Positions 14,598-29,094 of a stretch of 36,658 nucleotides of DNA are shown piece after piece. The stretch lies in the NCBI RefSeq assembly GCF_004345265.1, contig NZ_SLUM01000033.1, positions 1-36,658 of the forward strand. Direction: 5' to 3'. A program made the translations under genes and the position numbers. Below the pieces are notes generated by a model that was given only the letters and a program-made list of their open reading frames with translations, was not told the origin of the DNA and made no database searches. This DNA comes from Allofournierella massiliensis. Its GTDB lineage: Bacteria; Bacillota; Clostridia; Oscillospirales; Ruminococcaceae. The stretch's first letter is position 1, and every line of letters starts with the position of its first letter.

Positions 14598-14610
14598 AAA
14601 CACATGACTG

Positions 14611-14657
14611 CCCCTCTTCGGCTCATATAAATGAGCGAAGGGGGGCGATTTTTTTGC
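14611..14657 (+). terminator. Terminator-like hairpin carrying the ribosome site of the PBP gene
   Basis: CCCCTCTTC-G-GCTCAT (14611-14626) pairs with ATGAGC-GAAG-GGGGG (14631-14645), and a run of seven T follows (14650-14655). It looks like the terminator of the hscC/J operon. However, its 3' arm GAAGGGGGG is the only good Shine-Dalgarno sequence for the PBP reading frame, whose TTG start lies in the T-run at 14654. It could act as an attenuator or as a ribosome-site lock. Confidence 0.6.
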
Positions 14658-16057
14658 AAAAACAAACACCACAGGCCGCCCAGAACCGGGGAATGAGACT
14701 TCGCACCCGGCTGGCGGCCGGTTTTTTTGTGGCTGTGTGCTTTTCCACGCTGGTGGGGCGGCTCTGGTATCTGCAAATCCATGAATACGATTTTTATGCC
14801 CAGCGGGCGGCGGGCCAACAGCTGCGGGACAGTGTGGTTCCCGCGCCACGGGGGGATATTCTGGACGCAAACGGAACTCCGCTTGCGGTGTCTGCCAGCT
14901 GCTGGACCATCCGGGCAGTGCCCCGGGAGATGGCGGATGAGGATGTGGCCGAGGCATCCGCCGCACTGGCCCGGATTCTGGAGCTGGACGAAACGGATGT
15001 GCTGGAAAAACTGGGCCAGCGCAAAAGCAACGACGCGCTGCTCAAGCGCCGGGTGGATCAGGCCACCGCCGACGCGGTGCGTGAAGCCTGCCTGGAAAAC
15101 GACTGGCAGGGCATCCTCATTTTGCAGGATACCAGGCGCTGGTACCCGGAGGGGGATTTTGCCGCCAGCCTGCTGGGCTTCACCAACGTGGACAATCAGG
15201 GTGTGGCCGGGCTGGAGCTGGAATACAACAGCCTGCTCACCGGGCAGGACGGCCGGGTGCTCAGCGCAAAAAATGCCTGGGGTTACGACATGCCCACCGA
15301 TTACGATACCTACATTCAGCCGGTGCAGGGCAACAGCCTGCAGCTCACGGTGGATGTGAATGTCCAGCATTATCTGGAAAACTATCTCTCCACGGCGGTG
15401 AAGGAGCACAGCGTCACCGCCCGCGGGGTGGGCATTGTGATGGAGGTGGATACCGGCCGCATTCTGGCCATTGCCACCAAGCCGGACTACGACCCCAACG
15501 AACCCCGGGTGATTCAGGATGAAACCGTGCGCGCCCAGGTGGATGCCCTTACCGGCGAGGAGCGAACCCAGGCCCTCACCCTGGCTCAGCAGACCCAGTG
15601 GCGAAACAAGGCGGTGAGTGACCTTTACGAGCCCGGTTCGGTGTTCAAGCTCATCACCTGTGCCGCCGCGCTGGACGCAGGCGTGGCCACCACCAGCGAC
15701 AGCTTTTTCTGCGGTGAGTCCTACGGGGTGGCAGGGGTTCATTTTCACTGTGCCAACCACAAGCAGCATGGGGTGCAGAATCTGGCTCAGGCCCTGCAGA
15801 ACAGCTGCAACCAGAGCTTCATTCAGATTGGCCAGCGGTTGGGCAAGGAGGCCTTCTGCGATTATTTCGCCGCCTTCGGGTTGCAGGAGGCCACCGGCAT
15901 CGATCTGCCTGCCGAACCAAAGAAAAGCGAGTTTTACACCGCCGACCGGATGGGTCCGGCGGTTATTTTGGCAAAAAGACCGCATAGCTCCCCGATGCCC
16001 CGGCATAGAATGGCAGCAAAGGTCCGCTGCGGGCCGGAAAGAGGGAATGAACATTGA
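14654..16057 (+). CDS. Penicillin-binding protein transpeptidase, 5' part of a split gene (FtsI/SpoVD-like)
   Basis: Class B PBP truncated by the intervening element. A short cytoplasmic start is followed by one membrane segment (LAAGFFVAVCFSTLVGRLWY), the dimerisation region with APRGDILDANG, and the transpeptidase domain with SVFK (Ser329-Lys332) and SCN (384-386). The host sequence ends at codon 435 (CCG, 15956-15958). The last 32 codons (AVILAKRPHSS onwards) come from the element. The third catalytic motif, K(S/T)G, is missing here and lies 12.2 kb away at 28438, so this product cannot be an active transpeptidase. Start: TTG 14654 has a strong ribosome site; ATG 14693 lacks one. The stop TGA (16055-16057) overlaps the TTG of the next small ORF. 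Confidence 0.9.
   Translation: MQKQTPQAAQNRGMRLRTRLAAGFFVAVCFSTLVGRLWYLQIHEYDFYAQRAAGQQLRDSVVPAPRGDILDANGTPLAVSASCWTIRAVPREMADEDVAEASAALARILELDETDVLEKLGQRKSNDALLKRRVDQATADAVREACLENDWQGILILQDTRRWYPEGDFAASLLGFTNVDNQGVAGLELEYNSLLTGQDGRVLSAKNAWGYDMPTDYDTYIQPVQGNSLQLTVDVNVQHYLENYLSTAVKEHSVTARGVGIVMEVDTGRILAIATKPDYDPNEPRVIQDETVRAQVDALTGEERTQALTLAQQTQWRNKAVSDLYEPGSVFKLITCAAALDAGVATTSDSFFCGESYGVAGVHFHCANHKQHGVQNLAQALQNSCNQSFIQIGQRLGKEAFCDYFAAFGLQEATGIDLPAEPKKSEFYTADRMGPAVILAKRPHSSPMPRHRMAAKVRCGPERGNEH
15952..15959 (+). repeat. attL core, left junction of the element
   Basis: GGGTCCGG is shared with 28149-28156. Wider similarity of the two junctions follows the pattern CCGGnnGGGTCCGGnGG. The PBP frame reads GGT CCG at 15953-15958. 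The element arm to the right (CGGTTATTTTGGCAAAA) is an imperfect inverse of the element arm at the other end (TTTTAGCCAAATTC), as expected for the two arms of an attP site. Confidence 0.75.
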
Positions 16058-16182
16058 AGGGAACACCGCGGATAACGGTTGCTTTTGAAGAGGGAGGGCC
16101 GCCGCTGGAGGAGCTGCTGCGGCAGATTCTGGAACAGGACGCTGCTTTCTGGCAGGAGGACGGATGGAACGGGACGCAATGA
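16054..16182 (+). CDS. 42-residue ORF coupled to the recombinase
   Basis: A TTG-started ORF (GAGGG 8 bases upstream) encoding a short acidic protein with ITVAFEEGGPPLEELLRQIL and two tryptophans near its end. The TTG overlaps the stop of the truncated PBP (TTGA at 16054-16057), and its own TGA overlaps an ATG of the recombinase (ATGA at 16179-16182). The position, directly upstream of a large serine recombinase and in one translational chain with it, suggests an accessory role such as a directionality or control factor. I recognise no family; the function is inference. Confidence 0.6.
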   Translation: MKGTPRITVAFEEGGPPLEELLRQILEQDAAFWQEDGWNGTQ

Positions 16183-17720
16183 CGACCCCCATCGCTCTCT
16201 ATCTGCGGCTCAGCTCGGCGGACGGGGAGGGGGCGGAAAGCGGCTCCATCGCCAATCAGCGCACCTATCTGCACCGGTGGGCGGAGGAAAACGGATTCCG
16301 GGTGGTGGCGGAGTTTCAGGACGACGGTTATACCGGCACCGACTTTGAGCGCCCCGGATTTCAGCGGTTGATGGCTCAATTGAAAAGCGGCCGCATTCGC
16401 TGCTTTGCCACCACCGACCTTTCCCGGCTGGGGCGCAACTGCGGCCAGGCGCTCACACTGGTGGAGGAGACCTTTCAGCGGTTGGGTGTGCGCTACATTG
16501 CGGTGAACGACGGCTACGACACCGGAAAAATGAGCCGGGAGAGCCTGGACCCCAGCGTGTTTAAATTTCTGCTCAACGAGCTGTATGCCAAGGATTGCAG
16601 CGCCAAGGTGCTGCGGGCAAAACGCACGCTGCAACGGGAGGGCAAATTTCTGGGCGGGCAGGCCCCCTATGGCTACCGCATCGACCCGGCGGACAAATAT
16701 CGCCTTTTGCCGGATGAGGAAACCGCCCCGGTGGTGCGCCGCATCTATCATTCGTTTCTGGCGGGGCAGACGCTGGGGCAGATCGCCCGCACGCTGGAAC
16801 AGCAGGGGATACCGTCTCCCGCTGCCCGCCGGGCGGGCCGGGAGGGCGGAGCATGGAGTACTGCCACCCTGCGGCGCATCCTGACCCTGCCCACCTACCG
16901 GGGAGCACTGACCCAGCATGTGACCGAGATGACCAGCTACAAGGTTCACACCCGCCGCCCGGTACCGCCCGGGCAGTGGATGGTATGCGAGAATACCCAC
17001 CCGCCGCTGGTGAGCGAAGAGGAGTTCCGGCAGGCGCAGGCGCTGCTGGGGCGGCGGCGCTATGCGAGCCGGACAGGGGAGCACGCGCTCAGTGGGCTGG
17101 TTGTTTGCGCCGACTGCGGAGGGCGAATGTATCCCCACCGGGTGGGAGGCTACTGCTATTTTATCTGTGGTACTTATGCCCGGAATTCAGGGCAGTGCAG
17201 TGCCCACCGTATTCGGGAGGACAGGCTGGAGCAGCTGGTGCTGGAACGGCTGCGGCCGCTTATGCAGTGTGCCGCGGCTTCGGAACAGCTTGCCCGCCGT
17301 CTGTGCGTCGACCTTTCTTTCGACCAAACGGCCCCGGAGCGTTTGCAGCAAAAGCTGGATCGCCTGGCAGCCCAGCGCCGTCAGGCTTATGCGGATCGGC
17401 TGGAAGGACTGATCGATGCAGGGGAATATGCCATAGTTTCCGCCCGGCTGCGGAAAAAGGAAGAGGGCCTGCGCTGCCTCTTGCAGAGGCAGACCAAACA
17501 AAAAACAGGGCCGGATTTGGAGGAGATGCGGAAGCGGGCCGAGGATCTGCTGGAGTTGAAGCGTCCGAACCGGGCGGTATTGGGCAGACTGATCCGAAAG
17601 ATTACAGTGGCAGAGGACGGCGGAGTGGAAATTTACTGTTCCTTTGCCCGACCACTGCCGGGGGATGGATGTGACAATGGGGCGGAAAAGGAAATCAATA
17701 CAAATGGCGCAATTTTTTAA
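16164..17720 (+). CDS. Large serine recombinase
   Basis: A 518-residue site-specific recombinase of the resolvase/integrase superfamily that includes SpoIVCA of the skin element. The catalytic domain starts with YLRLSS (nucleophile Ser17) and has the DLSRLGRN arginine motif and DDGYTGTDFERPGF. The recombinase domain follows (GGQAPYGYRID, then LGQIARTLEQQGIPSP), then a zinc ribbon CxxC...CYFICGTYARNSGQC around residues 310-350, and a coiled-coil tail (ERLQQKLDRLAAQRRQAY). All parts for DNA excision and integration are present with no frameshift. AGGAGG ends 4 bases before ATG 16164; ATG 16179 overlaps the upstream ORF's stop and is an alternative start. It is next to attL, so it very likely acts on the two GGGTCCGG junctions. 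Confidence 0.95.
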   Translation: MERDAMTTPIALYLRLSSADGEGAESGSIANQRTYLHRWAEENGFRVVAEFQDDGYTGTDFERPGFQRLMAQLKSGRIRCFATTDLSRLGRNCGQALTLVEETFQRLGVRYIAVNDGYDTGKMSRESLDPSVFKFLLNELYAKDCSAKVLRAKRTLQREGKFLGGQAPYGYRIDPADKYRLLPDEETAPVVRRIYHSFLAGQTLGQIARTLEQQGIPSPAARRAGREGGAWSTATLRRILTLPTYRGALTQHVTEMTSYKVHTRRPVPPGQWMVCENTHPPLVSEEEFRQAQALLGRRRYASRTGEHALSGLVVCADCGGRMYPHRVGGYCYFICGTYARNSGQCSAHRIREDRLEQLVLERLRPLMQCAAASEQLARRLCVDLSFDQTAPERLQQKLDRLAAQRRQAYADRLEGLIDAGEYAIVSARLRKKEEGLRCLLQRQTKQKTGPDLEEMRKRAEDLLELKRPNRAVLGRLIRKITVAEDGGVEIYCSFARPLPGDGCDNGAEKEINTNGAIF

Positions 17721-17733
17721 AAAATGGAAGAAT

Positions 17734-17753
17734 ATGGACAGGGCCCTGTCCAT
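17734..17753 (+). promoter_or_regulatory. 20-bp palindrome (operator copy 1) before the FtsZ-derived gene
   Basis: ATGGACA-GGGCCC-TGTCCAT is a perfect 20-bp palindrome. A -10-like TATACT follows at 17763-17768, which places the palindrome over the -35 region of a promoter for the gene at 17802. The same half-sites at the same 6-bp spacing recur at 19147-19166, and both copies carry the extension AATATGGACA on the left. Confidence 0.65.
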
Positions 17754-17801
17754 CATGGCCGTTATACTGGTAAAGAAAGGAAATCAAGGGGGAGAATGGC
17801 T

Positions 17802-18476
17802 ATGGGGGACATCTGGGCAGGGCAACGCAACCGGCCCCTTCGGCTTTTGGCGGTGCAGCTGGAAAAGACGAGGGACAACGGCACCCGGAACAGAGAATTC
17901 ATGGGGGAAGAGCTGGCCGGAGCAGATATTCTTTATCTGAACTCATCAGCCGAATCATACAGAGAAGTGTCAGAACTGGCTGACTGGGCAAGACAGCGGG
18001 GAATTCTGGTGCTCTGGAATCCGGGCAGGCTGAAAAATGCCCGGATGCTGCCCACCCGTGGATGTGTAATTCTGCAAAGCGAATTGAGCGCGGAAGATGA
18101 GCTGGAAGCATTGCGGGAATTGTTCTGTACGCCCAGTCTGACCACAACACTGGATCGGGAAACCCTGGTGCAGACGCTTCAGGAGGCTTCACGGGCCAGG
18201 CTGGCAATGGTGCAGGCCAGCGGCAGCGGGAAAAACCGCAATCTGGCGCGAAGTCTGGCTTGTCAGGGCTGGCAAATGCCTCGGGAAGGGGCTTTGGTGG
18301 TGAGCATTGGATCCAGTGCGGACTGCCGGTTGGAAGAGGTGGTGGAACTGTGGCACGGAACTGTGAAACGAACCGGAGAACTGGATGTACTGTGGGGAAC
18401 TGCGTTCAATCTGGAACAATCGGATACCCTGCGGCTGGTGCTGATGGCTGTGACACCGGGAATGCCGAATGGATGA
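17802..18476 (+). CDS. FtsZ-derived protein lacking the GTP-binding motifs
   Basis: A 224-residue protein. Its last ~70 residues align with the C-terminal subdomain of FtsZ: GALVVSIGSSADCRLEEV and LDVLWGTAFNLEQSDTLRL here, against [17 protein letters not shown] and [19 protein letters not shown] in this genome's FtsZ (31920-33083). The middle also follows FtsZ: LAGADILYLN for [23 protein letters not shown] for [25 protein letters not shown] for the T7 loop NLDFADVR. The Rossmann glycine loop and the tubulin signature GGGTGTG are gone, and T7 keeps only one acidic position. It cannot be expected to bind GTP. It may bind FtsZ through the conserved half and modulate or cap filaments; this is inference. 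Start 17802 is 7 bases after AAGGGGGAG. Its stop overlaps the next start. Confidence 0.75.
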   Translation: MGDIWAGQRNRPLRLLAVQLEKTRDNGTRNREFMGEELAGADILYLNSSAESYREVSELADWARQRGILVLWNPGRLKNARMLPTRGCVILQSELSAEDELEALRELFCTPSLTTTLDRETLVQTLQEASRARLAMVQASGSGKNRNLARSLACQGWQMPREGALVVSIGSSADCRLEEVVELWHGTVKRTGELDVLWGTAFNLEQSDTLRLVLMAVTPGMPNG

Positions 18477-19072
18477 TGCGCTGTTTTGAGCGCTGGCTTC
18501 ACCATACCGGAATGACCGAAACGGAAAAACAGGAGTGTCGTCGCCGGGCTGCACAGGGCTTTGAGCAGCCGGCAGAAATTTTTTTGCTGGGAGCCTCCCG
18601 AAAGCTCCAATGTCAGATGCTTCGTGCTTTGGGAACGCGGCCTGCCCGAAGACAGAGCAGCTGCCGGCTGGGCAACTGGCGGATCTGGCTTTGTTCATCG
18701 GATGAACACGAAAATCCGCACAACGGGTTCCTTGAACCGGGGCAGAAGTCCGCTGGAAAAGGCTGCGCAATTCTGTTGGCATGCGCCGGAAGAGGCGGCA
18801 GGCTTCGAGCCCGGGAGGCCTGGAACAGGGGCTGTGATGGTACGGCTGGACGGCTGCAGAATGTTCCGGTTCTGGCGGTGCAGATTGAATTCTGCACCCG
18901 GCTGGAGAATCGACAACTTGGCCGGCAGGAAAATCGGGAAGCGCTGTTGCAGCAGACGGCGGAGGACTTTCTGGGCCGGCAGGTGCCCACATTTACGGTG
19001 TCGGCGGGGCGGCGGGGGCGCTGCTGCAGAGAGCGCCTGTGGTATCAACTGGCCAAACTGCTGTGTGAATGA
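18473..19072 (+). CDS. Unknown protein coupled to the FtsZ-derived gene
   Basis: A 199-residue ORF whose ATG overlaps the stop of the FtsZ-derived gene (ATGA, 18473-18476) and whose stop lies at the edge of a strong terminator; both support it being real. I do not recognise the family. Hydrophobic strands alternate with helices (EIFLLGA, GCAILLACAG, NVPVLAVQIEF) and the end PTFTVSAGRRG...LAKLLCE is vaguely like the last strand and helix of a Ras-type GTPase domain, but no Walker A or NKxD motif is present. The middle is rich in arginine and tryptophan and less protein-like, so a frameshift there cannot be ruled out. Confidence 0.5.
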   Translation: MMRCFERWLHHTGMTETEKQECRRRAAQGFEQPAEIFLLGASRKLQCQMLRALGTRPARRQSSCRLGNWRIWLCSSDEHENPHNGFLEPGQKSAGKGCAILLACAGRGGRLRAREAWNRGCDGTAGRLQNVPVLAVQIEFCTRLENRQLGRQENREALLQQTAEDFLGRQVPTFTVSAGRRGRCCRERLWYQLAKLLCE

Positions 19073-19127
19073 AAAAAGGCGCGGATGTGTGCTCTGTGAA
19101 GAGCAGCATCCGCGCTTTTTCTTTTTT
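19072..19127 (+). terminator. Intrinsic terminator after the FtsZ-derived operon
   Basis: GCGCGGATG pairs with CATCCGCGC, with an inner TGCTCT/AGAGCA stem, preceded by six A and followed by a T-rich tract (CTTTTTCTTTTTT). It ends the two-gene unit 17802-19072 and, with its A-tract, may also act on minus-strand transcripts of the Xre gene. Confidence 0.9.
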
Positions 19128-19146
19128 CGATCAGTTGGAGTATAAT

Positions 19147-19166
19147 ATGGACAATGGTGTGTCCAT
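19147..19166. promoter_or_regulatory. 20-bp palindrome (operator copy 2) after the FtsZ-derived operon
   Basis: ATGGACA-ATGGTG-TGTCCAT, with the same half-sites and spacing as 17734-17753. It directly follows TATAAT (19141-19146, plus strand), and TATACT can also be read on the minus strand at 19144-19139. It lies between the terminator and the 3' end of the Xre gene. Confidence 0.6.
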
Positions 19167-19198
19167 GCAGAAGCGTAGCATGTAAGAAAAAGGGGCCT

Positions 19199-19546: not shown

Positions 19547-19587
19547 GGTCCTCTCCCTTGGTTGTAGTTTTTGATTGTGTTTTCTTT

Positions 19588-19618
19588 ACTTTAGTGTATT
19601 TGAAACCGGTGTTCAAAT
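19588..19618 (-). promoter_or_regulatory. Xre promoter overlapped by a 21-bp palindrome
   Basis: Minus-strand TTGAAC (19616-19611), 17 bases, TAAAGT (19593-19588). The inverted repeat ATTTGAA-ACCGGTG-TTCAAAT (19598-19618) covers the -35 box and part of the spacer, the typical place for autorepression. Confidence 0.65.
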
Positions 19619-19641
19619 TAGTATTGATAGTGTGAACTGTA

Positions 19642-19670: not shown

Positions 19671-19717
19671 GAAAGGGTTAACCATAACCGTTTTTATTTG
19701 ATTTTGGAGGGAATGGC

Positions 19718-20719
19718 GTGCGCGATACAGAGATTGCCAGGAAACAGCACCGTCTGCTGGCTTTGCAGCAGGAGTTGCTGGGCGGCAGGGTGATCAATAA
19801 AAAGGAGTGGGCTGCCCGTTTCGGGGTGACAGAAAAAAGCATTCAGCGTGATCTGGATGATCTGAAAGCCTTTTTTGCGGAAGGGCGGGATGGCCGGGAG
19901 GTGCTGTATGATCCGGGCGCCCGGGGATATCGCCTTACCCGGCAGCAGACCTCCACCCTGACCAACAGTGAGGTGCTGGCGGTGTGTAAAATTCTGCTGG
20001 AAAGCCGCTCCATGGTGAAGGAAGAGATGTTCCCTATTCTGGATAAGCTCATCCAGGGCTGCACACCGGCTGCGCAGCTGCAGCAGGTGGAGGCACTGAT
20101 TCGCAACGAGAGATTCCACTATGTGGAGCCGCACCATGGCTGCCGGTTTATTGAGTCTCTCTGGCAGTTGGGAACCGCGGTGAAGGAGCAGCGGGTGCTG
20201 CATATTCGCTACCGGAAAATGGACGGAATCCTCTGTGACCGGGTGGTGGAACCGGTGGGAATTCTGTTCAGTGAGTATTATTTTTATCTGGCGGCTTTTA
20301 TCCGGGGCATCGATCGGCAGGAGCATTTTGAAAACCCTCAGGACAAAAGCCCTACCATTTATCGCATCGACCGAATCACTCATTTTCAGGTGACCGACGA
20401 GCATTTTCGGGTACCTTATAAAAACCGTTTTCAGGAAGGTGAGATGCGCAAGCGCATCCAGTTCATGTATGGCGGAAAACTGGAAAAGGTTCGGTTTGTC
20501 TATACCGGCCCCAATCTGGAGGCGGTGCTGGATCGGCTGCCCACCAGCCGGGTGGTGGGGCGCGATGCCCGGGGATACCCCATCGCTGAAGCTGAGGTAT
20601 TCAGCGGCAACGGCCTAGATATGTGGCTGAAAAGCCAGGGAGACTGGGTGGAACTGGAAAAAACCACCGATCAGAAGGAAAGCGATGCTTGCCCCCAAAG
20701 CGGCCATGGTGTACAATAA
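19718..20719 (+). CDS. WYL-domain transcriptional regulator
   Basis: A 333-residue regulator. A DeoR-like helix-turn-helix lies at about 1-65 (GGRVINKKEWAARFGVTEKSIQRDLDDL). The WYL domain follows in the middle, where the WYL core is the variant YYFYLAAF, preceded by the RKMDGILCDRVVEPVGI strand. A WCX-like C-terminal domain (KVRFVYTGPNLEAVLDRLP...SGDWVELE region) ends the protein. WYL proteins sense ligands, often nucleic acids or nucleotides, and frequently control phage defence or stress operons. Start: GTG 19718, 6 bases after GGAGGG. Its partner is the divergent Xre gene. cutC follows after 57 bp and may be co-transcribed. Confidence 0.9.
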   Translation: MRDTEIARKQHRLLALQQELLGGRVINKKEWAARFGVTEKSIQRDLDDLKAFFAEGRDGREVLYDPGARGYRLTRQQTSTLTNSEVLAVCKILLESRSMVKEEMFPILDKLIQGCTPAAQLQQVEALIRNERFHYVEPHHGCRFIESLWQLGTAVKEQRVLHIRYRKMDGILCDRVVEPVGILFSEYYFYLAAFIRGIDRQEHFENPQDKSPTIYRIDRITHFQVTDEHFRVPYKNRFQEGEMRKRIQFMYGGKLEKVRFVYTGPNLEAVLDRLPTSRVVGRDARGYPIAEAEVFSGNGLDMWLKSQGDWVELEKTTDQKESDACPQSGHGVQ

Positions 20720-20776
20720 CCCCAGACAAGCAGGCGGGCCGAATGTGGCCCGATGAAGAAAAAGGAGTTAACTATC

Positions 20777-21517
20777 ATGGAACATCTGCTGGAGATCTGT
20801 GTGGATTCGCTGGAATCCGCTCTGGCCGCCCAGGCAGGCGGCGCCGACCGTCTGGAGCTGTGTGGCAGTCTGATCATTGGGGGAACAAGCCCCTCCATTG
20901 CGCTGGTGCGCCAGGTGATGGAGCAGGTTCATATTCCGGTGAATGTGCTGCTGCGCCCCCGCTTTGGCGATTTCTGCTTCACCCCCTCTGAACAGGAGGC
21001 TACCCTGTGGGAGATTGAGCAGTGCCGTGCGCTGGGGGTGAACGGTGTGGTGTTGGGCGCTCTGCTGCCCAATGGCGCGCTGGACCGGGAATTTCTGGCC
21101 CGCTGTGTGGATGCGGCCGGCGGGCTTCACCGCACGCTGCACCGGGCATTTGATGTCTGCCGCGATCCCTTTGAGGCCTTGGAGGATGCGGTGGAGCTGG
21201 GCTTCGACACCATCCTCACCTCCGGCCAGCAGGCAAAGGCCGAGCAGGGCATTCCGCTGCTGACCCAGCTGGTGCAGCGGGCCGATGGCCGGGTGAACAT
21301 TCTGGCAGGCAGCGGCGTGAACCCCGGCAACATGGAAAAACTGGCTGCCGCCGGTGTGCGTCAGTTCCATTTCTCCGCCAAAAAGGCTGTAGAAAGCCCC
21401 ATGGCCTTCCGCCGGCAGGGCGTGCCCATGGGCTTGCCTGTGGCGGATGAATATCTGCGGGAATACACCGATGCGGCGCTGGTCCGCCAGGCCAAGGAGC
21501 TTCTTGCGGGCCTCTAA
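20777..21517 (+). CDS. cutC: CutC family protein
   Basis: A 246-residue TIM-barrel protein. The start LEICVDSLESALAAQAGGADRLELC, the GGTSPS loop, PVNVLLRPRFGDFCF and LHRAFDVCRDPFEALE are the conserved CutC blocks, in order. Historically linked to copper homeostasis, but its enzymatic role is not settled. AAAGGAG lies 9 bases before the ATG; the frame is open to 20753 without need. Probably co-transcribed with the WYL gene. No terminator is seen between it and the PTS leader, which has its own promoter. Confidence 0.94.
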   Translation: MEHLLEICVDSLESALAAQAGGADRLELCGSLIIGGTSPSIALVRQVMEQVHIPVNVLLRPRFGDFCFTPSEQEATLWEIEQCRALGVNGVVLGALLPNGALDREFLARCVDAAGGLHRTLHRAFDVCRDPFEALEDAVELGFDTILTSGQQAKAEQGIPLLTQLVQRADGRVNILAGSGVNPGNMEKLAAAGVRQFHFSAKKAVESPMAFRRQGVPMGLPVADEYLREYTDAALVRQAKELLAGL

Positions 21518-21645: not shown

Positions 21646-21663
21646 TTAGCTGACAAGAACAGT

Positions 21664-21691
21664 GGGTTGTTACTGTACGGCAGGCAAGACC
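21664..21691 (+). promoter_or_regulatory. RAT: ribonucleic antiterminator of the LicT/BglG type
   Basis: GGGTTGTTACTG-TACG-GCAGGCAAGACC forms the asymmetric hairpin bound by LicT/SacY-type antiterminators (consensus GGATTGTTACTG...GCAGGCAAAACC). Its last bases overlap the 5' arm of the terminator at 21690, so the two structures are exclusive. Confidence 0.9.
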
Positions 21692-21748
21692 ATATTCAAA
21701 CACATCTCTTCCGCAGTGCGGAGGAGGGTTTTGAATATGGTTTTTTTT
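21690..21748 (+). terminator. Leader terminator of the PTS operon
   Basis: CCATATTCAAA (21690-21700) pairs with TTTGAATATGG (21730-21740), followed by eight T. It stops transcription before licT unless the RAT hairpin is stabilised by phosphorylation-controlled LicT. Confidence 0.92.
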
Positions 21749-21781
21749 ATTGCCTCGGCAAAAGGCGAGAGGAACGTGCGA

Positions 21782-22615
21782 ATGAAGGTACTCAAATCCA
21801 TCAACAATAACGTTGTGTCCTGCCTGGACGAAAACGGCCAGGAAGTGATCGCCATGGGCCGGGGGCTGGGCTTTTCCCTTCGCAGCGGCGACGAGCTGGA
21901 CGCAGCAAAGGTGGAAAAGCTGTTTCGCATGCAGACGCCGGATGAAGCGCGCCGCCTGACGGATCTGTTTTCCACTCTGCCGCCTCAGCAGATCGAGCTG
22001 TGCAGCCGCATTGTGGACCGGGCGACCGAAGATCTGGGCCGCAAGCTCTGCCCCAGCGTTTATCTGACGCTTACCGACCACATCTGTTTTGCCATTGAGC
22101 GGCTGCGCAAGGGCACCGTGTTCCAGAACACCCTTCTGGCAGAGGTGCGAACCTTCTACCCGCGGGAGTATGCACTGGGCAAATATGGTCTGGAGCTGCT
22201 GGAGCGGGAGCTGGGAATTCATTTCCCGGATGACGAGGCTGCCAACATTGCGCTGCATCTGGTGAATGCGGAGTACGAAAATTCCATCCGGGACACCCTG
22301 CGCATTACCCAGACCCTGCACGATGTGCTTACCAGCCTGGCGGGCTGGCCCCATCTGCATCTGGATCAGGAGAGCGGCTTTTACGACGAGTTTACCGTTC
22401 ATCTGAAATTCCTGGTATTCCGGGCCTTTTCCGGCCAGGAGCAGACCCAGAAGGATCCGCGCTTTGTGGAAGCGGTGCGGCAGTGTTACCCGGAAGAGTT
22501 TCACTGTGCACAGCAGATTGTGGAAGGACTGTGCAGCCGAAGCGGTACCAGTCTTCCCCCGGAAGAGCAGGCCTATCTGGCCGCCAGCCTGCACCGTACC
22601 TGCAGGAAAGTTTAA
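21782..22615 (+). CDS. licT: BglG/LicT-family transcriptional antiterminator
   Basis: A 277-residue RNA-binding regulator. The CAT domain is at about 1-55 (MKVLKSINNNVVSCLDENGQEVIAMGRGLGF in pieces), PRD1 at ~65-170 with LTDHICFAIERL and GIHFPDDEAANIALH, and PRD2 to the end with VHLKFLVFRAF and LPPEEQAYLAASLHR; these carry the histidines that PTS proteins phosphorylate. It would bind the RAT in its own leader and allow read-through into crr-ptsI-ptsH-nagE when sugar is being transported. I start at ATG 21782 (GAGAGGAA 8 bases upstream), because the upstream open frame runs through the terminator. Sugar specificity is inferred from the EIIBC gene. Confidence 0.94.
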   Translation: MKVLKSINNNVVSCLDENGQEVIAMGRGLGFSLRSGDELDAAKVEKLFRMQTPDEARRLTDLFSTLPPQQIELCSRIVDRATEDLGRKLCPSVYLTLTDHICFAIERLRKGTVFQNTLLAEVRTFYPREYALGKYGLELLERELGIHFPDDEAANIALHLVNAEYENSIRDTLRITQTLHDVLTSLAGWPHLHLDQESGFYDEFTVHLKFLVFRAFSGQEQTQKDPRFVEAVRQCYPEEFHCAQQIVEGLCSRSGTSLPPEEQAYLAASLHRTCRKV

Positions 22616-22706: not shown

Positions 22707-23201
22707 ATGGGCATTTTCGACAAACTGTTTGGCAAGAAATCCAGCGACATCACTCTGGGTGCGCCGGTGGCCGGCGAGGCTGTTTCCCTGAACCAGGTCA
22801 GCGACCCCACCTTCGGTGAGGAGATCCTGGGCAAGGGTGTGGCCATCAAGCCCACCGGCAACCGTGTGGTTGCCCCCTGCGACGCCACCATAGATCTGAT
22901 GTTCGACACCGGCCATGCGGTAAGCCTGAAGGCGGACTGCGGCGCTGAGGTGCTGATCCATGTGGGTCTGGAGACCGTGTCGCTGAAGGGTGAGCACTTC
23001 ACCACCCACGCCAAGACCGGTGACCATGTGACTGCCGGCCAGCTGCTGATCGAGTTCGACCGGGAGGCAGTTGCCGCCGCCGGCTTCGACACCATCACTC
23101 CCATGGTGATCTGCAACACTGCGGATTACAAGGAAGTGAACGCACAGACCGGCGCCGCTGTGGCTGAGGGCGATACCGTTCTCACCCTGGTCAAGGAATA
23201 A
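22707..23201 (+). CDS. crr: PTS EIIA component, glucose-type
   Basis: A 164-residue EIIA-Glc-type protein that takes phosphate from HPr and passes it to EIIB. The active-site region GHAVSLKADCGAEVLIHVGLET contains the phosphoryl His85 and the helper histidine, and FTTHAKTGDHVTAGQLL is the usual second block. It begins like other free EIIA-Glc proteins (FDKLFGKK, then APVAGEAVSL). A strong AAGGAAAGGAAGGAA site precedes the ATG. It follows licT after 91 bp and precedes ptsI by 20 bp. In this operon it supplies the IIA function that the EIIBC at 25204 lacks. Confidence 0.95.
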   Translation: MGIFDKLFGKKSSDITLGAPVAGEAVSLNQVSDPTFGEEILGKGVAIKPTGNRVVAPCDATIDLMFDTGHAVSLKADCGAEVLIHVGLETVSLKGEHFTTHAKTGDHVTAGQLLIEFDREAVAAAGFDTITPMVICNTADYKEVNAQTGAAVAEGDTVLTLVKE

Positions 23202-23221
23202 GAGAGAGGAGAACAAACGCA

Positions 23222-24835
23222 ATGCGTCAGGGTACTGGTAGACCCGTATTTTCCGGCGTGGCCATCGGCCGTGCCTATGTGTACCGCCATCAGCAGGCGG
23301 AGCTGCCCGGCTCCTGCGGCGATGCCGCCGCCGAGCAGAAAAAATTCGACGAAGCCCGCGAGACGGCCCGCGCTCAGCTGACCGAGCTGTTTGAAAAGAC
23401 CAAACGGGAAATCGGTGAGGAGCAGGCCATGATTCTGGACGTTCAGATGATGATGCTGGACGATCTGGATTATCTGGAGGGCGTGCAGGACATGATTGCC
23501 GGAGGCGCCAGCGCGGCGCAGGCGGCTCACGAGACCGGCGATGCCTTCAGCGCAGCCTTTGCCGCCATGGACGACGCCTATATGCAGGCCCGTTCGGTGG
23601 ACGTAAAGGACATGGCCACCCGTCTGGTAAACATCCTGTGCGGCGGCAAGACCGGTTTTTCCATGGAGGAGCCCGGCATTCTGGTGGCCGAGGATCTGAC
23701 CCCCAGCGAGACCGTGCAGCTGCCCAAGGATAAGATCCTGGCCTTTGTGACCCGCCAGGGCTCTTCCAACAGCCACACCGCCATTCTGGCCCGCATCATG
23801 AACATTCCTTCTCTGGTGCAGGCGCAGATCACTCTGGACGACGATCTGGACGGCAAGATGATGATTGTGGATGGCTTCGAGGGCCGCTACTACATCGAGC
23901 CGGACGAGGATACCCGCGCCGCCATGGAGAAAAAGCGGGATGAGGCTCAGGCCTACCGCCAGCAGCTGGAAGCCTACCGGGGCAAGCCCACCGTTTCCAA
24001 GAGCGGCCGCAAGCTGAAGCTGTTTGCCAACATCGGCAACCCGGACGACGTGAAGTATGTGCTGGAGGGCGACGCCGAGGGCGTGGGCCTGCTGCGCAGT
24101 GAGTTCCTCTATCTGGGCCGGGATACCTTCCCCACCGAAGAGGAGCTGTTCCAGGCCTACCGCAAGGTGGTGGAAAGCCTGCAGGGCCGCCCGGTGGTCA
24201 TCCGTACGCTGGATATCGGCGCGGACAAACAGGTGGATTACTTCGGCCTGGAGCATGAAGAAAACCCCGCTCTGGGTTACCGGGGCATCCGCATCTGCCT
24301 GACCCGGGAGGACATCTTCCGGCCGCAGCTGCGGGCCATCTACCGTGCCAGCGCCTTCGGCCCCGTGAGCATCATGTTCCCCATGATCATCTCGGTGGAT
24401 GAGGTTCGCCGCATCAAGGCCTTCTGCGAGACCATCAAGGCCGAGCTTGCCGCCGAGGGCATCGCCTTCGGTGAGGTGGAGCTGGGCATCATGATCGAGA
24501 CTCCCGCTGCTGCGGTGCTCAGCCGCGAGCTGGCGAAGGAAGTTCAGTTCTTCAGCGTGGGTACCAACGATCTGACCCAGTACACGCTGGCCATCGACCG
24601 GCAGAATGCCAAACTGGATGAGTTCTACGATCCCCATCATCCTGCGGTGCTGGCGTTGCTGCGCATGATTGCCGAGAACGCCCATGCGGAGGGCATCTGG
24701 TGCGGCATCTGCGGTGAGCTGGGCGCGGATATTTCCCTGACGGAGACCTTCCTGGAAATGGGCTACGACGAGCTGTCGGTATCGCCCGGCCGGGTTTTGG
24801 AATTGAGAAAGAAAGTTTGCGAAAGCGAGGTATAA
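23222..24835 (+). CDS. ptsI: PTS enzyme I (PEP-protein phosphotransferase)
   Basis: A 537-residue enzyme I, the first step of the phosphotransferase relay from PEP to HPr. The HPr-binding and phosphohistidine domains hold GSSNSHTAILAR with the active His185. The C-terminal TIM barrel has GVGLLRSEFLYL, MFPMI, ELGIMIETPAA, FFSVGTNDLTQY and GICGELG. Slightly shorter than the usual ~570 residues, without obvious loss. It is followed by ptsH after 4 bp; ptsI before ptsH is the reverse of the common order. Its presence in the same operon as a sugar-specific EII makes the system self-sufficient. Confidence 0.97.
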   Translation: MRQGTGRPVFSGVAIGRAYVYRHQQAELPGSCGDAAAEQKKFDEARETARAQLTELFEKTKREIGEEQAMILDVQMMMLDDLDYLEGVQDMIAGGASAAQAAHETGDAFSAAFAAMDDAYMQARSVDVKDMATRLVNILCGGKTGFSMEEPGILVAEDLTPSETVQLPKDKILAFVTRQGSSNSHTAILARIMNIPSLVQAQITLDDDLDGKMMIVDGFEGRYYIEPDEDTRAAMEKKRDEAQAYRQQLEAYRGKPTVSKSGRKLKLFANIGNPDDVKYVLEGDAEGVGLLRSEFLYLGRDTFPTEEELFQAYRKVVESLQGRPVVIRTLDIGADKQVDYFGLEHEENPALGYRGIRICLTREDIFRPQLRAIYRASAFGPVSIMFPMIISVDEVRRIKAFCETIKAELAAEGIAFGEVELGIMIETPAAAVLSRELAKEVQFFSVGTNDLTQYTLAIDRQNAKLDEFYDPHHPAVLALLRMIAENAHAEGIWCGICGELGADISLTETFLEMGYDELSVSPGRVLELRKKVCESEV

Positions 24836-24839
24836 TCTT

Positions 24840-25097
24840 ATGAAAGAAATCAAACATGTAATCGCTGATCCCCTGGGCCTGCATGCCCGTCCCGCCGGCC
24901 TGCTGGTGAAAGAGGCCGCAAAGAACGCCTGCAATGTGACCGTTGCGGTAAACGGCACCTCCGTGGATGCCAAGCGCATCATGGGCGTGATGAAGCTGGC
25001 TGCCAAGCAGGGCATGGAGCTGACCCTGACCTTCGACGGCGCCGATGAGGAGGCTGCGGCTGCCTCCATGGCCGAGTTCCTGAAGGCCAACCTGTAA
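24840..25097 (+). CDS. ptsH: HPr phosphocarrier, without regulatory Ser46
   Basis: An 85-residue HPr. The phosphoryl site GLHARPAG carries His15, and it is 4 bp after ptsI. At position 46, where Firmicute HPr has the serine phosphorylated by HPr kinase (KSIMGVMSL), this protein has arginine (KRIMGVMKL), so it should not take part in CcpA-type carbon catabolite repression through P-Ser-HPr. The transport role should be intact. Whether another HPr with Ser46 exists in the genome cannot be seen here. Confidence 0.95.
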   Translation: MKEIKHVIADPLGLHARPAGLLVKEAAKNACNVTVAVNGTSVDAKRIMGVMKLAAKQGMELTLTFDGADEEAAAASMAEFLKANL

Positions 25098-25203
25098 GTT
25101 TGGGCAAAGAGGGGCGGCTGTGGGCCGGCCGTCCCTGTGCTGATAATTCGGTGTTTCGGCATTGCGGCCGGGCACCGGGATCTGTGTTAGGAGGATATTA
25201 CTT

Positions 25204-26646
25204 ATGATGCGATTTTTGCAACGCTTGGGCAAGTCTTTGATGCTGCCCGTGGCATGTCTGCCCATCGGCGGTATCCTGATGGGTATCGGTTACTGGATCG
25301 ACCCCACCGGCTGGGGCGCCAATAGCCTGCTCGCTCTGCTGCTGATCAAGGCCGGCGGCATTCTGATCGACAACATGGCCATTCTGTTCGCTCTGGGCGT
25401 AGCCATCGGCATGTCCAAGGATCAGGAGGGTACTTCCGCTCTGGCAGCCATCATCTCCTGGCTGACCGTGCAGACCATGCTCGGTACCAGTGTTGTTCAG
25501 CTGATTCTGGGTGCTGACGCCACTGTTCCCGCTGCATTTGCTAAGATCAACAACCAGTTCATCGGTATCCTGTGCGGCCTGATTGCTGCCGGATGCTACA
25601 ACAAGTTCTACAAGACCAACATGCCCGACTTCCTGGGCTTCTTCGCGGGCCGTCGTTTCGTGCCCATCATGACCGTGCTCACCACTCTGGTGGTCTGCAT
25701 CCCCCTGTACTTCGTATGGCCCGTTGTTTACGGCTTCCTGGTATGGGTTGGCGAGAGCGTTCTGGGCATGGGCGCTGTGGGCGCCGGCATCTACGGTTTC
25801 CTGAACCGTCTGCTGATCCCCATCGGCATGCACCACGCTCTGAACAGCGTGTTCTGGTTTGACGTTGCCGGCATCAACGATATCGGCAAGTTCTGGGGCA
25901 CCATGGAAGGCGGCGTTCTGGGTCAGACCGGTATGTACCAGGCTGGCTTCTTCCCCGTCATGATGTTCGGTCTGCCCGGCGCTGCGCTGGCCATGTACCA
26001 CACCGCCAAGGACAAGAAGAAGAAGGTTACCGCCGGCATCCTGCTGTCTGTTGCCCTGTGCTCCTTCCTGACTGGTGTTACCGAGCCCATGGAGTTCTCC
26101 TTCATGTTCCTGGCTCCCGCTCTGTACGTTGTGCACGCCCTGCTGACCGGCCTGTCTGTTGGCATCGTGGCTGCTCTGCCCATCCGTGCCGGCTTCAATT
26201 TCAGCGCCGGTTTCGTTGACTGGTTCCTGAGCTTCAAGGCTCCCTTCGCCATGAACTCCTGGCTGCTGATCCCCATCGGCCTGGTATTCTTCGTCCTGTA
26301 CTATGTGATCTTCCGCATCCTGATCGTCCAGCTGAATCTGAAGACCCCCGGCCGTGAGGACGACGACAATGCTGCCGAGATGAACATCGAGCTGGGCAGC
26401 AGCGATTACGCTGCCATGGCCGCTGCCATCCTGGAAGGCGTTGGCGGTGCTGCCAACGTGACCAACGTGGACAACTGCATCACCCGCCTGCGTCTGGAAG
26501 TTAAGGACCGCCTGCTGGTGGATGAGAAGAAGATCAAGGCTTCCGGCGCTGCCGGCGTGGTTCGTCCCGGCAAGACCAGCGTTCAGGTCATCATCGGACC
26601 CAAGGTTCAGTTTGTGGCTGACGAGTTCAAGAAGCTGGTCAAATAA
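25204..26646 (+). CDS. nagE: PTS EIIBC, N-acetylglucosamine type (NagE-like)
   Basis: A 480-residue membrane permease of the glucose superfamily. The EIIC part (about 1-380) closely follows NagE: NRLLIPIGMHHALNSVFWF, GFFPVMMFGLPGAALAMY, FLTGVTEPMEFSFMFLAPALY, IRAGFNFSAGFVDW, then LNLKTPGRED. The EIIB domain follows with NVDNCITRLRLEV, where Cys425 is the phosphorylation site. No EIIA domain is attached; the free EIIA at 22707 supplies it. GlcNAc is the likely substrate, with glucose or maltose as alternatives. Start ATG 25204 lies 8 bases after AGGAGG. The 106 bp before it hold a GGGGCGGC/GCCGTCCC hairpin that could lower or separate its expression from ptsH. Confidence 0.92.
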   Translation: MMRFLQRLGKSLMLPVACLPIGGILMGIGYWIDPTGWGANSLLALLLIKAGGILIDNMAILFALGVAIGMSKDQEGTSALAAIISWLTVQTMLGTSVVQLILGADATVPAAFAKINNQFIGILCGLIAAGCYNKFYKTNMPDFLGFFAGRRFVPIMTVLTTLVVCIPLYFVWPVVYGFLVWVGESVLGMGAVGAGIYGFLNRLLIPIGMHHALNSVFWFDVAGINDIGKFWGTMEGGVLGQTGMYQAGFFPVMMFGLPGAALAMYHTAKDKKKKVTAGILLSVALCSFLTGVTEPMEFSFMFLAPALYVVHALLTGLSVGIVAALPIRAGFNFSAGFVDWFLSFKAPFAMNSWLLIPIGLVFFVLYYVIFRILIVQLNLKTPGREDDDNAAEMNIELGSSDYAAMAAAILEGVGGAANVTNVDNCITRLRLEVKDRLLVDEKKIKASGAAGVVRPGKTSVQVIIGPKVQFVADEFKKLVK

Positions 26647-26731
26647 GAGACTGTTCCTCGCATCGGGGCGATGAACGGCGGCATGTCTGGGCCCACAAGA
26701 CATGTCGTGTCTGCCCGCCCCAACCTCATAC

Positions 26732-26786
26732 AAACGGTCAAGGCCGTATCCCTGCCAGGCAGTGGATGCGGCCTTGGCCGTTTTTG
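26732..26786 (+). terminator. Terminator of the PTS operon
   Basis: AAACGGTCAAGGCCG-T-ATCC pairs with GGAT-G-CGGCCTTGGCCGTTT, followed by TTT. A long GC-rich stem with a 12-base loop, 86 bp after the nagE stop. Confidence 0.9.
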
Positions 26787-26789
26787 CGC

Positions 26790-26839
26790 TTGACAGAAGG
26801 GGATAAAACAGTTATATTAGTATTTGCTTAAATACTTAA
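26790..26839 (+). promoter_or_regulatory. Promoter and ArsR-like operator of the 4Fe-4S operon
   Basis: TTGACA (26790-26795), 17 bases, TATATT (26813-26818). The near-palindrome TTAAATACTTAA (26828-26839) covers the expected transcript start, a usual place for ArsR/SmtB repressor sites. The operon's last gene encodes such a repressor. Confidence 0.7.
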
Positions 26840-26898
26840 ACAAAAAGCGCGGCTTGCGAAGAATGGAATGCTCCGCACCGCGCGGCAAGGGGGAACGT

Positions 26899-27105
26899 AT
26901 GCCGTCGAAACGATATGCCCGGGTGGACCGGGACTACTGTGTGGCCTGTGGCTGCTGCGTCAAGGTATGCCCGATGGATGCCATCGCCGTGTGGCATGGG
27001 GTGGAGGCCAGAGTGGACGAAGCCCGCTGTGTGGGCTGTGGCCGCTGCGCGAAGGAATGCCCGGCAGGGGCCATTGAACTTGCGGAAAGGGGGATCCGGC
27101 AATGA
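26899..27105 (+). CDS. Two-cluster 4Fe-4S ferredoxin
   Basis: A 68-residue ferredoxin with two motifs CVACGCCVKVCP and CVGCGRCAKECP, each fitting CxxCxxCxxxCP, so two [4Fe-4S] clusters. It begins at ATG 26899 after AAGGGGGAA; an upstream in-frame ATG at 26863 lacks a ribosome site. Its stop overlaps the start of the next gene (ATGA, 27102-27105). It most likely passes electrons to or from the membrane iron-sulfur protein that follows. Confidence 0.9.
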   Translation: MPSKRYARVDRDYCVACGCCVKVCPMDAIAVWHGVEARVDEARCVGCGRCAKECPAGAIELAERGIRQ

Positions 27106-27752
27106 AGAAGGCAAAACACTGGTATGATCATCTGTGGATTGTCACGCCCATCTATCTGGCGCTGGGCTTTTTCAATATCCTGTTTGCCTGGCTGGGCATG
27201 ATCTTTTTCTGCCTGCCGCTGTTCATTGCCATCTTTGGCGGCAGCAAGCTGTATTGCAACCGCTACTGTGACCGGGGGCAGTTTCTCTCGCTGCTGGGCG
27301 GCAGACTGAAGCTCAGCGCCAATCGCCCCACTCCGAACTGGATGCGCTCCAAATGGTTTCGTTACGGTTTTCTGGTCTTTTTCTTTGCCATGTTCTTTCA
27401 GATGCTCTGGGTCACCTATCTGGTGGGCTCCGGGGCACAGAATCTGAGCGAGACGGTCAAGCTGTTCTGGACCTTCCGCCTGCCCTGGGACTGGGCGTAT
27501 CACGGGGAAGCAGTGGCTCCCTGGGTGGCACAGTTTGCCTTCGGCTTTTACAGCCTGATGCTCACCTCCAACCTGATCGGCTGGATCGTGATGGCCCTGT
27601 TTAAACCCCGCAGCTGGTGTGTGTTCTGCCCCATGGGCACCATGACCCAGCTGATCTGTAAACTGCGCGCCCCCCGGGGGGAAAGTGTGCAGACTGCCTG
27701 CTCCGCGCAGGGGTGCGCCGGCTGTGCCGGATGCGGGAAAAAGGAGGAGTGA
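27102..27752 (+). CDS. Membrane 4Fe-4S protein (NapH/YccM-like)
   Basis: A 216-residue membrane protein with about four helices (IVTPIYLALGFFNILFAWLG, IFFCLPLFIAIFGG, YGFLVFFFAMFFQMLWVTYL, SLMLTSNLIGWIVMALF). It has two cysteine motifs of the NapH/NosR/YccM type, YCNRYCDRGQF and WCVFCPMGTMTQ, plus a cysteine-rich C-terminus (CSAQGCAGCAGCG). Such proteins transfer electrons across or along the membrane. It is coupled to the ferredoxin by a 4-base overlap and followed after 3 bp by an ArsR regulator. The electron acceptor is unknown. Confidence 0.85.
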   Translation: MKKAKHWYDHLWIVTPIYLALGFFNILFAWLGMIFFCLPLFIAIFGGSKLYCNRYCDRGQFLSLLGGRLKLSANRPTPNWMRSKWFRYGFLVFFFAMFFQMLWVTYLVGSGAQNLSETVKLFWTFRLPWDWAYHGEAVAPWVAQFAFGFYSLMLTSNLIGWIVMALFKPRSWCVFCPMGTMTQLICKLRAPRGESVQTACSAQGCAGCAGCGKKEE

Positions 27753-27755
27753 GCC

Positions 27756-28049
27756 ATGCGGGAACAGGCGCGGAAAATCGCGGAGCTGATGGGCCAGCTG
27801 GCCAACGAAAACAGGCTGCTGATCCTGTGTGCTCTGCTGGAAAAGCCCATGACCGTGGGTGAGCTGGCAGGTACGGTGCCGGGCATCAGCGGGCCCGCAC
27901 TTTCGCAGCATCTGCAAAAGCTGCGGGCAGGGCAGCTGGTGCAGGCACAAAAGGAGGGGCAGTTCGTACGTTATTCCATCAAGGATGAACGGCTGTATGC
28001 CCTGATGGCCCTTCTCAAGAAGGAATATTGCGGCGAAACCGCTTTATAA
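27756..28049 (+). CDS. ArsR/SmtB-family repressor
   Basis: A 97-residue winged-helix regulator: ANENRLLILCALLEKPMTVGELA, then GPALSQHLQKLRAGQLVQAQKEGQFVRYSI, the typical ArsR recognition helix and wing. It has only two cysteines (Cys31 and one near the C-terminus), without the CxCxxC metal site of ArsR, so the signal could be redox, metal or a small thiol. It probably represses its own operon from the site at 26828-26839. It is the last intact gene before the right end of the element. Confidence 0.92.
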   Translation: MREQARKIAELMGQLANENRLLILCALLEKPMTVGELAGTVPGISGPALSQHLQKLRAGQLVQAQKEGQFVRYSIKDERLYALMALLKKEYCGETAL

Positions 28050-28083
28050 TTACATTATTAAATAGTAAAAACAAGTGTATTCA

Positions 28084-28127
28084 CAGGCGGCAAAGCAGAT
28101 TTCTGCTTTGCCGCCTGCTTTTGTTTT
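28084..28127 (+). terminator. Terminator at the right end of the element
   Basis: CAGGCGGCAAAGCAGA pairs with TCTGCTTTGCCGCCTG, followed by CTTTTGTTTT. It isolates the 3' PBP part, ftsW and murA from element transcription. In an excised circle it would lie just upstream of the recombinase and could silence it. Confidence 0.92.
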
Positions 28128-28148
28128 AGCCAAATTCATCTGCCGGGC

Positions 28149-28156
28149 GGGTCCGG
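28149..28156 (+). repeat. attR core, right junction of the element
   Basis: GGGTCCGG, identical to 15952-15959. The PBP frame reads GGT CCG GTG GAA (28150-28161), so joining to the left copy keeps the frame. Confidence 0.75.
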
Positions 28157-29094
28157 TGGAATTGGCAAGCTGCTCTTTTGGCCAGTCCAGCAAAATTACA
28201 CCCATTCAGGTGATTACTGCAGTGAGCGCCATTGTGAACGGCGGCAAACTGATGCAGCCCTATGTGGTGGAGCAGGTGGTGAACGCTCAGGGAGATGTGG
28301 TGCAGAAGAATGAACCCACGGTGAAGCGGCAGGTCATCAGCGAGGAGGCAAGCGCTACCATGCGCCAGCTGATGCAGAGTGTGGTGCTGGAAGGCGGCGG
28401 CAGAAACGCCTACGTGGCGGGCTATGCGGTGGGGGGAAAGTCCGGAACCAGCCAGAAGCTGGACTCGGAGGACGAGGATGCCCGGGTGGCCAGCTTTGTG
28501 GGGGTGGCACCCATCGATGATCCCCGGATTGCAGTGCTTATTGTGCTGGATGAACCTCACAGCTATACCACCAGCGGCGGCGCGCTGGCAGCACCGGTGG
28601 TGGCCGGTATCATTGAGAATACGCTGGAATATTATGATACGCCCCGGCGCTACACCGAAGCCGAGCAGGAGCAGATGCAGGCTGTTGTGCCGGATCAGAC
28701 CGGGAAAAATACGGAACTGGCCGTCCAGCAGCTGCAGGAAAGCGGTTTTGCGGCCAAAACGCTGGGCAGTGGCGACGACGTGGTGACCCAGTACCCAGCA
28801 GGAGGGCTGACGTTGCCCCGGGGCAGCACAGTGCTGCTTTATACCGAGGAGGGGCTGGAACTGCTTGCCACTCAGGTACCCGCTGTGGATGGCCAGAGCC
28901 TGACACATGTGCAGGCAGAGATGCAGGCAGCCGGGCTGAATCTGCTGGCCGTGGGGGCGGTGCAGAGTGAAAATGCGGTGGCGGTAAACCAGAGTATGGC
29001 GGCAGGGGAGAGCGCCACCATGGGCACAGCGGTAACAGTGGTATTCCAGGATCCCACCATCCCGCCGGATGGCGATGATGTGAAGCCGGAATAG
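28150..29094 (+). CDS. Penicillin-binding protein, 3' part of the split gene, with two PASTA domains
   Basis: Continues the transpeptidase of 14654-15958: GPVELASCSFGQ, TPIQVITAVSAIVNGG and the third catalytic motif KSGT, codon 530 of the rebuilt gene. Two PASTA repeats follow (VVPDQTGKNTELAVQQLQESG and the one starting TQVPAVDGQSLTHVQAEM), then an acidic proline-rich end. There is no ribosome site and no conserved start on this side, so alone it is a non-functional fragment. Rejoined, the protein would be 747 residues, the size of SpoVD/PBP2x-type enzymes. ftsW follows after 59 bp, the usual partner of such PBPs. Confidence 0.9.
   Translation, partial: GPVELASCSFGQSSKITPIQVITAVSAIVNGGKLMQPYVVEQVVNAQGDVVQKNEPTVKRQVISEEASATMRQLMQSVVLEGGGRNAYVAGYAVGGKSGTSQKLDSEDEDARVASFVGVAPIDDPRIAVLIVLDEPHSYTTSGGALAAPVVAGIIENTLEYYDTPRRYTEAEQEQMQAVVPDQTGKNTELAVQQLQESGFAAKTLGSGDDVVTQYPAGGLTLPRGSTVLLYTEEGLELLATQVPAVDGQSLTHVQAEMQAAGLNLLAVGAVQSENAVAVNQSMAAGESATMGTAVTVVFQDPTIPPDGDDVKPE

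Follow-up and report, generated by a model that had tools for sequence, protein, structure and literature searches.

In the 36,658-bp stretch of the Allofournierella massiliensis genome analysed here (contig NZ_SLUM01000033.1 of assembly GCF_004345265.1, hereafter the window), a spoVD-type gene encoding a class B penicillin-binding protein (PBP) is interrupted by an island of 12,197 bp that carries its own large serine recombinase (LSR); judging from sequence comparison, this island is very likely a spoVD-intervening element, that is, a developmental switch similar to skin. The first part of the frame occupies positions 14654–15959 and the remainder positions 28157–29094, both on the forward strand, and when joined they form 2244 bases, or 747 codons and a stop, with no internal stop codon. 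The 5' half begins with a TTG codon behind an AAGGGG-like ribosome site (found by eye), and its frame continues into the island, where a stop codon lies at 16055–16057. The left half covers positions 3–139 of the Pfam transpeptidase model together with the PBP dimer domain and the SxxK and SxN motifs, whereas the right half covers positions 149–298 of the same model together with the KSGT motif and PASTA. The best NCBIfam model for either half was TIGR02214 (spoVD), with 332 and 211 bits, respectively; neither reaches 688, the cut-off set for the whole protein, a shortfall that half a protein should show. The LSR (518 aa, 16164–17720, forward strand) contains the resolvase, recombinase and zinc-ribbon domains according to Pfam, and was matched by profile to TnpX and YokA, the latter of which we take to be SprA of SPbeta. 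The original prediction, made from the sequence of the window, had described a PBP gene split by an element of about 12.2 kb, the same sequence at both junctions, a single 747-codon frame after joining and a complete LSR just inside, and all of these features were confirmed. The shared sequence, GGGTCCGG, was found at 15952–15959 and 28149–28156 and nowhere else on either strand of the window. It should be noted that the genome (3.73 Mb in 76 contigs) holds 82 copies of the same octamer, so that by itself it is little proof; the island stands above chance because other genomes share the break and because the attachment (att) sites outside the Gemmiger group, to which the window genome belongs, are symmetric.

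The joined protein was searched in 61 genomes, including the window genome, and spoVD in 71 genomes overall, whereas the LSR was searched in 197 genomes of the family and then, as a profile, in 396 genomes with no more than three candidates scored per genome. LSR scores of 640–926 bits were obtained in 11 genomes; the next value was 475 (G304), and the others among the 28 listed did not exceed 421. In all 11 genomes spoVD was cut at the same codon, and these genomes represented three genera of one family, namely, the Gemmiger group (the window genome, G001, G002 and G006), g13 (G018 and G159) and g78 (G083, G179, G247, G300 and G343). The break separated query residues ~1–436 and 431–747 in all ten relatives, the matched stretch of the N-half was free of stops in each split genome, and the seam after rejoining read DRMGPVELASC in 11 of 11. 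Both halves lay on one contig in eight genomes, where they were co-oriented around an island inside this sporulation gene, and on separate contigs in G018, G159 and G300. The halves of G001, G002 and G006 were ~12.2 kb apart, with islands collinear with that of the window, while larger islands were found in G179 (21 kb), G083 (27 kb), G247 (29 kb) and G343 (81 kb). An uninterrupted gene in related genomes, a comparison suggested by the original prediction, was seen in seven relatives (G003, G004, G005, G026, G014, G024 and G412). The match in G024 contains one TGA, and that in G412, a g78 genome, ends at residue 597. Within the Gemmiger-group genus, four of seven genomes were split and three were not. 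The same cut was not found in G304, G148 and G223, whose best matches (43–44%) may be an FtsI paralog. Since spoVD was searched in 71 genomes, split genes without a related LSR could have been missed. Other fragmented PBP matches (e.g., in G010, G013, G017 and G048) were broken at different places.

Selection was assessed by the ratio of nonsynonymous to synonymous substitution rates (dN/dS, Nei–Gojobori) in six pairs of four Gemmiger-group species, one g78 pair and one g13 pair (G018–G159), with G247, G300 and G343 left out both here and in the trees. In the Gemmiger group, the ratios were 0.03–0.10 for the N-half, 0.09–0.16 for the C-half and 0.11–0.23 for the LSR, all without stops, and those of the neighbouring genes were 0.03–0.07 (ftsW) and 0.17–0.20 (the upstream gene). 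The g78 pair gave 0.10 for each half and 0.14 for the LSR, and the g13 pair gave 0.13 for the C-half; there was no N-half value for the latter pair, and its ftsW value was excluded because different paralogs had been compared. Weaker constraint was found in the same island for the open reading frame (ORF) at 17724 (0.21–0.36 in six pairs, one stop in G006) and for the ORF at 18561 (0.83 in one pair, three stops in G001). Neither half of spoVD is closed by stops, and purifying selection acts on both wherever it was measured. In the open stretch ahead of the C-half, none of the 11 split genomes, the window included, has a start codon accompanied by a ribosome-site pattern, and G002, G006, G018 and G159 have no start codon of any kind there. 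As the C-half is under selection yet lacks a clear route of translation, rejoining is the best explanation.

The LSRs of eight split loci formed one clade (support 100/99) apart from nine other LSRs chosen from the matches in the 197 family genomes; the RLS motif was invariant among these eight aligned sequences, and identity to the window LSR within the spoVD group was 45–76%. In its order, the LSR profile matched two of 394 genomes (the window genome and G006). As a phage source, the best eight of 785 phage records reached 35%, and as a plasmid source, the best five of 511 plasmid records reached 34%, with all records of both kinds below 60%; 70 loci on viral contigs reached 36%. These comparisons thus revealed no phage or plasmid from which the LSR could closely derive. 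The split label changed twice on the spoVD tree and once on the LSR tree, and the two trees joined the three genera differently; both one old insertion with subsequent losses and transfer into the same site would fit these topologies. The LSR of the spoVD locus in G343 was interrupted at about codon 85 by an insertion of ~66 kb (L098 4654–4878 and L099 1–4610), near the end of which two further LSR-like stretches were found, an island within an island.

The att cores of the window were CCGGAT-GG-GTCCGG at 15946–15959 (attL) and CCGGGC-GG-GTCCGG at 28143–28156 (attR), each containing one copy of the octamer, with GG as the presumable central dinucleotide. A core of approximately CCGGRY-GG-GTCCGG was found throughout the Gemmiger group and g13, the attR of G006 starting with TCGG, while the attR of G179 and G083 in g78 was CCGGGC-GG-GCCCGG, with flanks covarying around GG. 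The rebuilt circle site (attP) was strongly symmetric in g13 (23/26 positions in both G018 and G159) and in g78 (20/26 in G179, 23/26 in G083 and 22/26 in G343), none of 5000 shuffled sequences being as good; G300 reached 19/26 (1 of 5000 shuffles), and G247 scored 20/26, the shuffles having covered the other g13 and g78 genomes. The attB, attL and attR sites of the g13 and g78 genomes were not symmetric. The att arms vary by genus, as would be expected of recombinases drifting with their sites. By eye, the attP arms of the Gemmiger group seem to match with a one-base shift.

A putative SigE-like promoter, ATA-N17-CATAGAAT, was located at 15984–16011 of the window on the forward strand, ahead of a small ORF and the LSR. 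Its form is that described in PMC3789822, in which the SigE promoter of C. difficile spoIIID is ATA-N16-CATATATA and the canonical mother-cell -10 element is CATATTAT. The pattern ATA-N16/17-CATAnnAT preceded the LSR in six of the 11 loci (the window, G179, G083, G247, G300 and G343) at ~180–209 bases from the LSR start (approximately in G300 and G343). It occurred 12 times, two of them overlapping, in 686,374 strand-bases of retrieved sequence, a set from which the G300 locus was absent, and five of these occurrences were the LSR sites. In G018 and G159, the LSR starts ~160 bases past attL and is oriented like spoVD. The LSR would be expressed under SigE in the mother cell; in B. subtilis, spoVD and spoVE are cortex genes controlled by SigE (PMC517825). 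The small ORF (42 codons, 16054–16182, forward strand) overlaps the start of the LSR and is a candidate accessory or directionality factor; by eye, its counterpart precedes the LSR in all 11 split loci, and a similar ORF is also present ahead of some LSRs outside spoVD. At the other end, a strong hairpin resembling an intrinsic terminator (28084–28127, forward strand) lies just ahead of attR and is expected to shield the 3' half of spoVD from transcripts of the island. A strong hairpin with a T-run was found at this place in six of 11 loci, namely, in the Gemmiger group and g13, and was weak or lacking in the five g78 loci.

From these features we infer excision, its timing, the sigma factor and the roles of the small ORF and the terminator as follows. 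In growing cells, spoVD would stay cut, and the terminator at the right end of the island would silence the 3' half. After asymmetric division, SigE of the mother cell would transcribe the small ORF and the LSR, and the LSR would then recombine the two att sites, attL and attR, at their central GG, releasing a circle of 12.2 kb. A scarless spoVD would be rebuilt and co-transcribed with the downstream gene of the ftsW/spoVE family (29154–30341, forward strand; 338 bits with the spoVE model and 332 bits with the ftsW model, both under the cut-offs), which excision would probably rejoin to the spoVD promoter. The island would be kept in the lineage because the mother cell dies.

Several observations weigh against this interpretation. 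Neither an empty site nor a circle turned up among the sequences, the circle junction having been searched in viral contigs. A single genus supplies five of the six promoter matches, which are therefore not independent; G001, G002 and G006 have CATAGAAT but no ATA -35 box, and no such promoter precedes the LSR in G018 and G159. The symmetry of attP was weak in the Gemmiger group, including the window (13–14/26, a level reached by 8–20% of shuffles), and in g78 the attL and attR sites differ at the base after GGG or nearby, so that there is no exact 8-bp repeat. The SigE-like factor present in seven of seven genomes of the genus scored 326–340 bits against a curated cut-off of 348.6. Finally, the interruption of the LSR makes excision in G343 doubtful.

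An ordinary site-specific mobile island, using spoVD as its attachment site, disabling the gene and excising for transfer rather than for development, would agree with the abundance of the wider LSR family (75 of 197 family genomes matched at 1e-60), with cargo that varies by lineage and with a site that is empty in seven relatives. We consider it unlikely, since the halves have remained open and constrained through dS values of 0.26–1.13, as those of a dead gene would not, and since Pfam identified neither conjugation nor phage genes within the 12 kb of the island. Conservation of both halves would also be seen if they were translated separately and acted together as a two-piece protein, with excision unneeded; this is very improbable, because the split falls inside the transpeptidase domain, the C-half lacks the starts described above and there would be no reason for the att sites to stay symmetric. 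Still further down in probability, to the point of being negligible, is an artefact of assembly or a misjoined contig: the halves lie on different contigs in G018, G159 and G300, but eight of 11 genomes, including the single-contig genomes G247 and G343, have both halves on one contig, and the locus is collinear in four species. On contig C19 of G018 (L027), the 5' half of spoVD and the LSR occur twice in an inverted duplication, which is probably itself an assembly artefact. Programmed excision, put forward by the original prediction, is favoured over decay by the conserved split, the purifying selection, the maintained att sites and the LSR clade, and it is further supported by the SigE-like LSR promoter in six of 11 loci and by the islandless gene of the seven relatives.

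The window genome contains further transpeptidase matches (three full-length and one partial). One of these PBPs, on contig C4, is 46% identical to the joined protein and is surrounded by mraW, Mur ligase, mraY-type, ftsW-type and murG-type genes (assigned through Pfam families) of the dcw cluster. It is probably the vegetative FtsI, and with both a PBP and an ftsW-type gene in this cluster, division during growth is probably served by a separate FtsI and FtsW. Decay of the halves in relatives, one part of the evidence that the original prediction named as speaking against it, was not seen. Upstream of spoVD, a hairpin spans positions 14600–14660 of the window, with CATATAAAT and the ribosome site lying within it (by eye), and CATA boxes are located 24–35 bases ahead of the spoVD start in several relatives; a terminator and a promoter may overlap here. 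A SigE promoter may also precede spoVD itself: the exact pattern ATA-N16/18-CATAnnnT was present in two of 18 upstream regions (G005 and G024), with CATA-type boxes in most others.

Sporulation capacity of these organisms would be consistent with their gene content: besides the SigE-like factor, SpoIVA was above the cut-off in seven of seven genomes of the genus. The Gemmiger type species has been described as non-sporing. A second match to the SigE model, presumably a SigK-like sigma gene, was split in two congeners, G001 and G002 (L105/L106), the pieces in G001 being at 875–1189 and 16384–16731 of L103. The split was at approximately residues 101–105 of the matched piece, the halves were 15 and 22 kb apart, and an LSR near the far end differed from that of spoVD (26–27% identity). 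The gene was uninterrupted in the window genome and in G005, was represented by two pieces on different contigs in G003 and G006, and by one piece in G004. These splits look like skin elements within the same genus.

The rest of the window island is occupied by forward-strand ORFs. Adjoining the LSR is an ORF (17724–18476), one of the two weakly constrained ones, that resembles the C-terminal part of FtsZ (E = 3e-11 to the ftsZ product encoded at 31920–33083, downstream of the island) and has no Pfam match; a comparison with solved structures gave a sole match, weak and unrelated. The cargo comprises a WYL-domain regulator (19718–20719), cutC (20753–21517), a LicT/BglG-type antiterminator (21782–22615, scanned as 21662–22615), a phosphotransferase system (PTS) operon encoding EIIA, EI (ptsI), HPr and EIIBC of the N-acetylglucosamine type (22707–26646), and two 4Fe-4S proteins with an ArsR-type regulator (26824–28049). 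No phage structural or replication gene was found by Pfam among 16 island ORFs scanned, some of which overlap and are perhaps not genes. The PTS proteins were 95–100% identical in three congeners, whereas relatives of the window EI had 42% and 37% identity elsewhere in its own genome, 41% in G005 and 52% in G003, and none was found in G004 at 1e-60. Other lineages carry different genes. The G083 island contains cas3, cse1 and cse2 with cas7-, cas5-, cas6-, cas1- and cas2-type genes, i.e., a type I-E CRISPR-Cas system (L065 7436–16690), which the mother cell is predicted to lose along with the island. In G018, a tyrosine recombinase lies beyond the LSR, and the contig ending in the C-half carries glycosyltransferase, glycosidase-lectin, LicD and choline-kinase-type genes; of G179 and G247, one has sulfatase-, transporter- and glycosidase-like ORFs and the other a surface-polysaccharide cluster (ORF translations inspected by eye). 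Tentatively, and at somewhat less than even chances, spoVD could be an old docking site in this bacterial family: a stable module of recombinase and att sites would excise in the mother cell, and lineages would exchange the cargo (PTS, type I-E CRISPR-Cas, glycan synthesis and carbohydrate-use genes). The terminal cell line would then dependably lose its cargo operons, so that genome loss would both time cortex synthesis and rid the mother cell of genes.

If the proposed switch is real, spoVD, a cortex transpeptidase gene, joins the genes switched by DNA excision, and the hosts would be bacteria of the Gemmiger group and its family, not Bacillus or Clostridium. With a single LSR lineage occupying the same codon in three genera while its cargo is exchanged, the locus would offer a clean system for asking what excisable islands do in sporulation genes. 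It would also be a warning for annotation, as two pseudogene-like halves may together form a functional gene, a point that matters when such bacteria are classed as non-sporulating. Intervening elements are reported for sigK, spoVFB, spoVR, spsM, gerE and yabG in PMC5595907, PMC4191935, PMC10747680 and PMC5025042, in which the word spoVD was not found, and no report of a developmental spoVD island appeared in the titles and abstracts of the open-access literature searched.

In skin of B. subtilis and C. difficile, as at spoVD, a mother-cell sporulation gene (sigK) is interrupted by an LSR-encoding island; excision in C. difficile is under SigE and SpoIIID (PMC5025042), and expression of the recombinase in sporulation is already known for skin of B. 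subtilis, vfbin and gin (PMC5595907). The spoVD island differs from skin in its target, a peptidoglycan transpeptidase instead of a sigma factor, and in that no phage gene was recognised in it. The gin element in gerE of B. cereus ATCC10987 is similar in its non-phage cargo, serine recombinase, short direct repeat in symmetric att sites and sporulation-phase expression of the recombinase (PMC5595907); however, gin is 28.6 kb long, has three recombinases and occurs in B. cereus and B. toyonensis strains, whereas the 12-kb spoVD island has one LSR and kin in three genera. The elements vfbin (spoVFB), vrin (spoVR), SPbeta (spsM) and yin (yabG) likewise interrupt sporulation genes (PMC4191935, PMC10747680) but are phage or phage-like, with other target genes and other hosts. 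ICEBs1 of B. subtilis is a mobile element found within spoVD itself, though as a secondary insertion in a laboratory strain, with undetectable excision and no developmental role (PMC3715440). Thus, the class of mechanism proposed here is known, while the target gene, the host group, the conservation of one codon in three genera and the exchanged cargo would be new.

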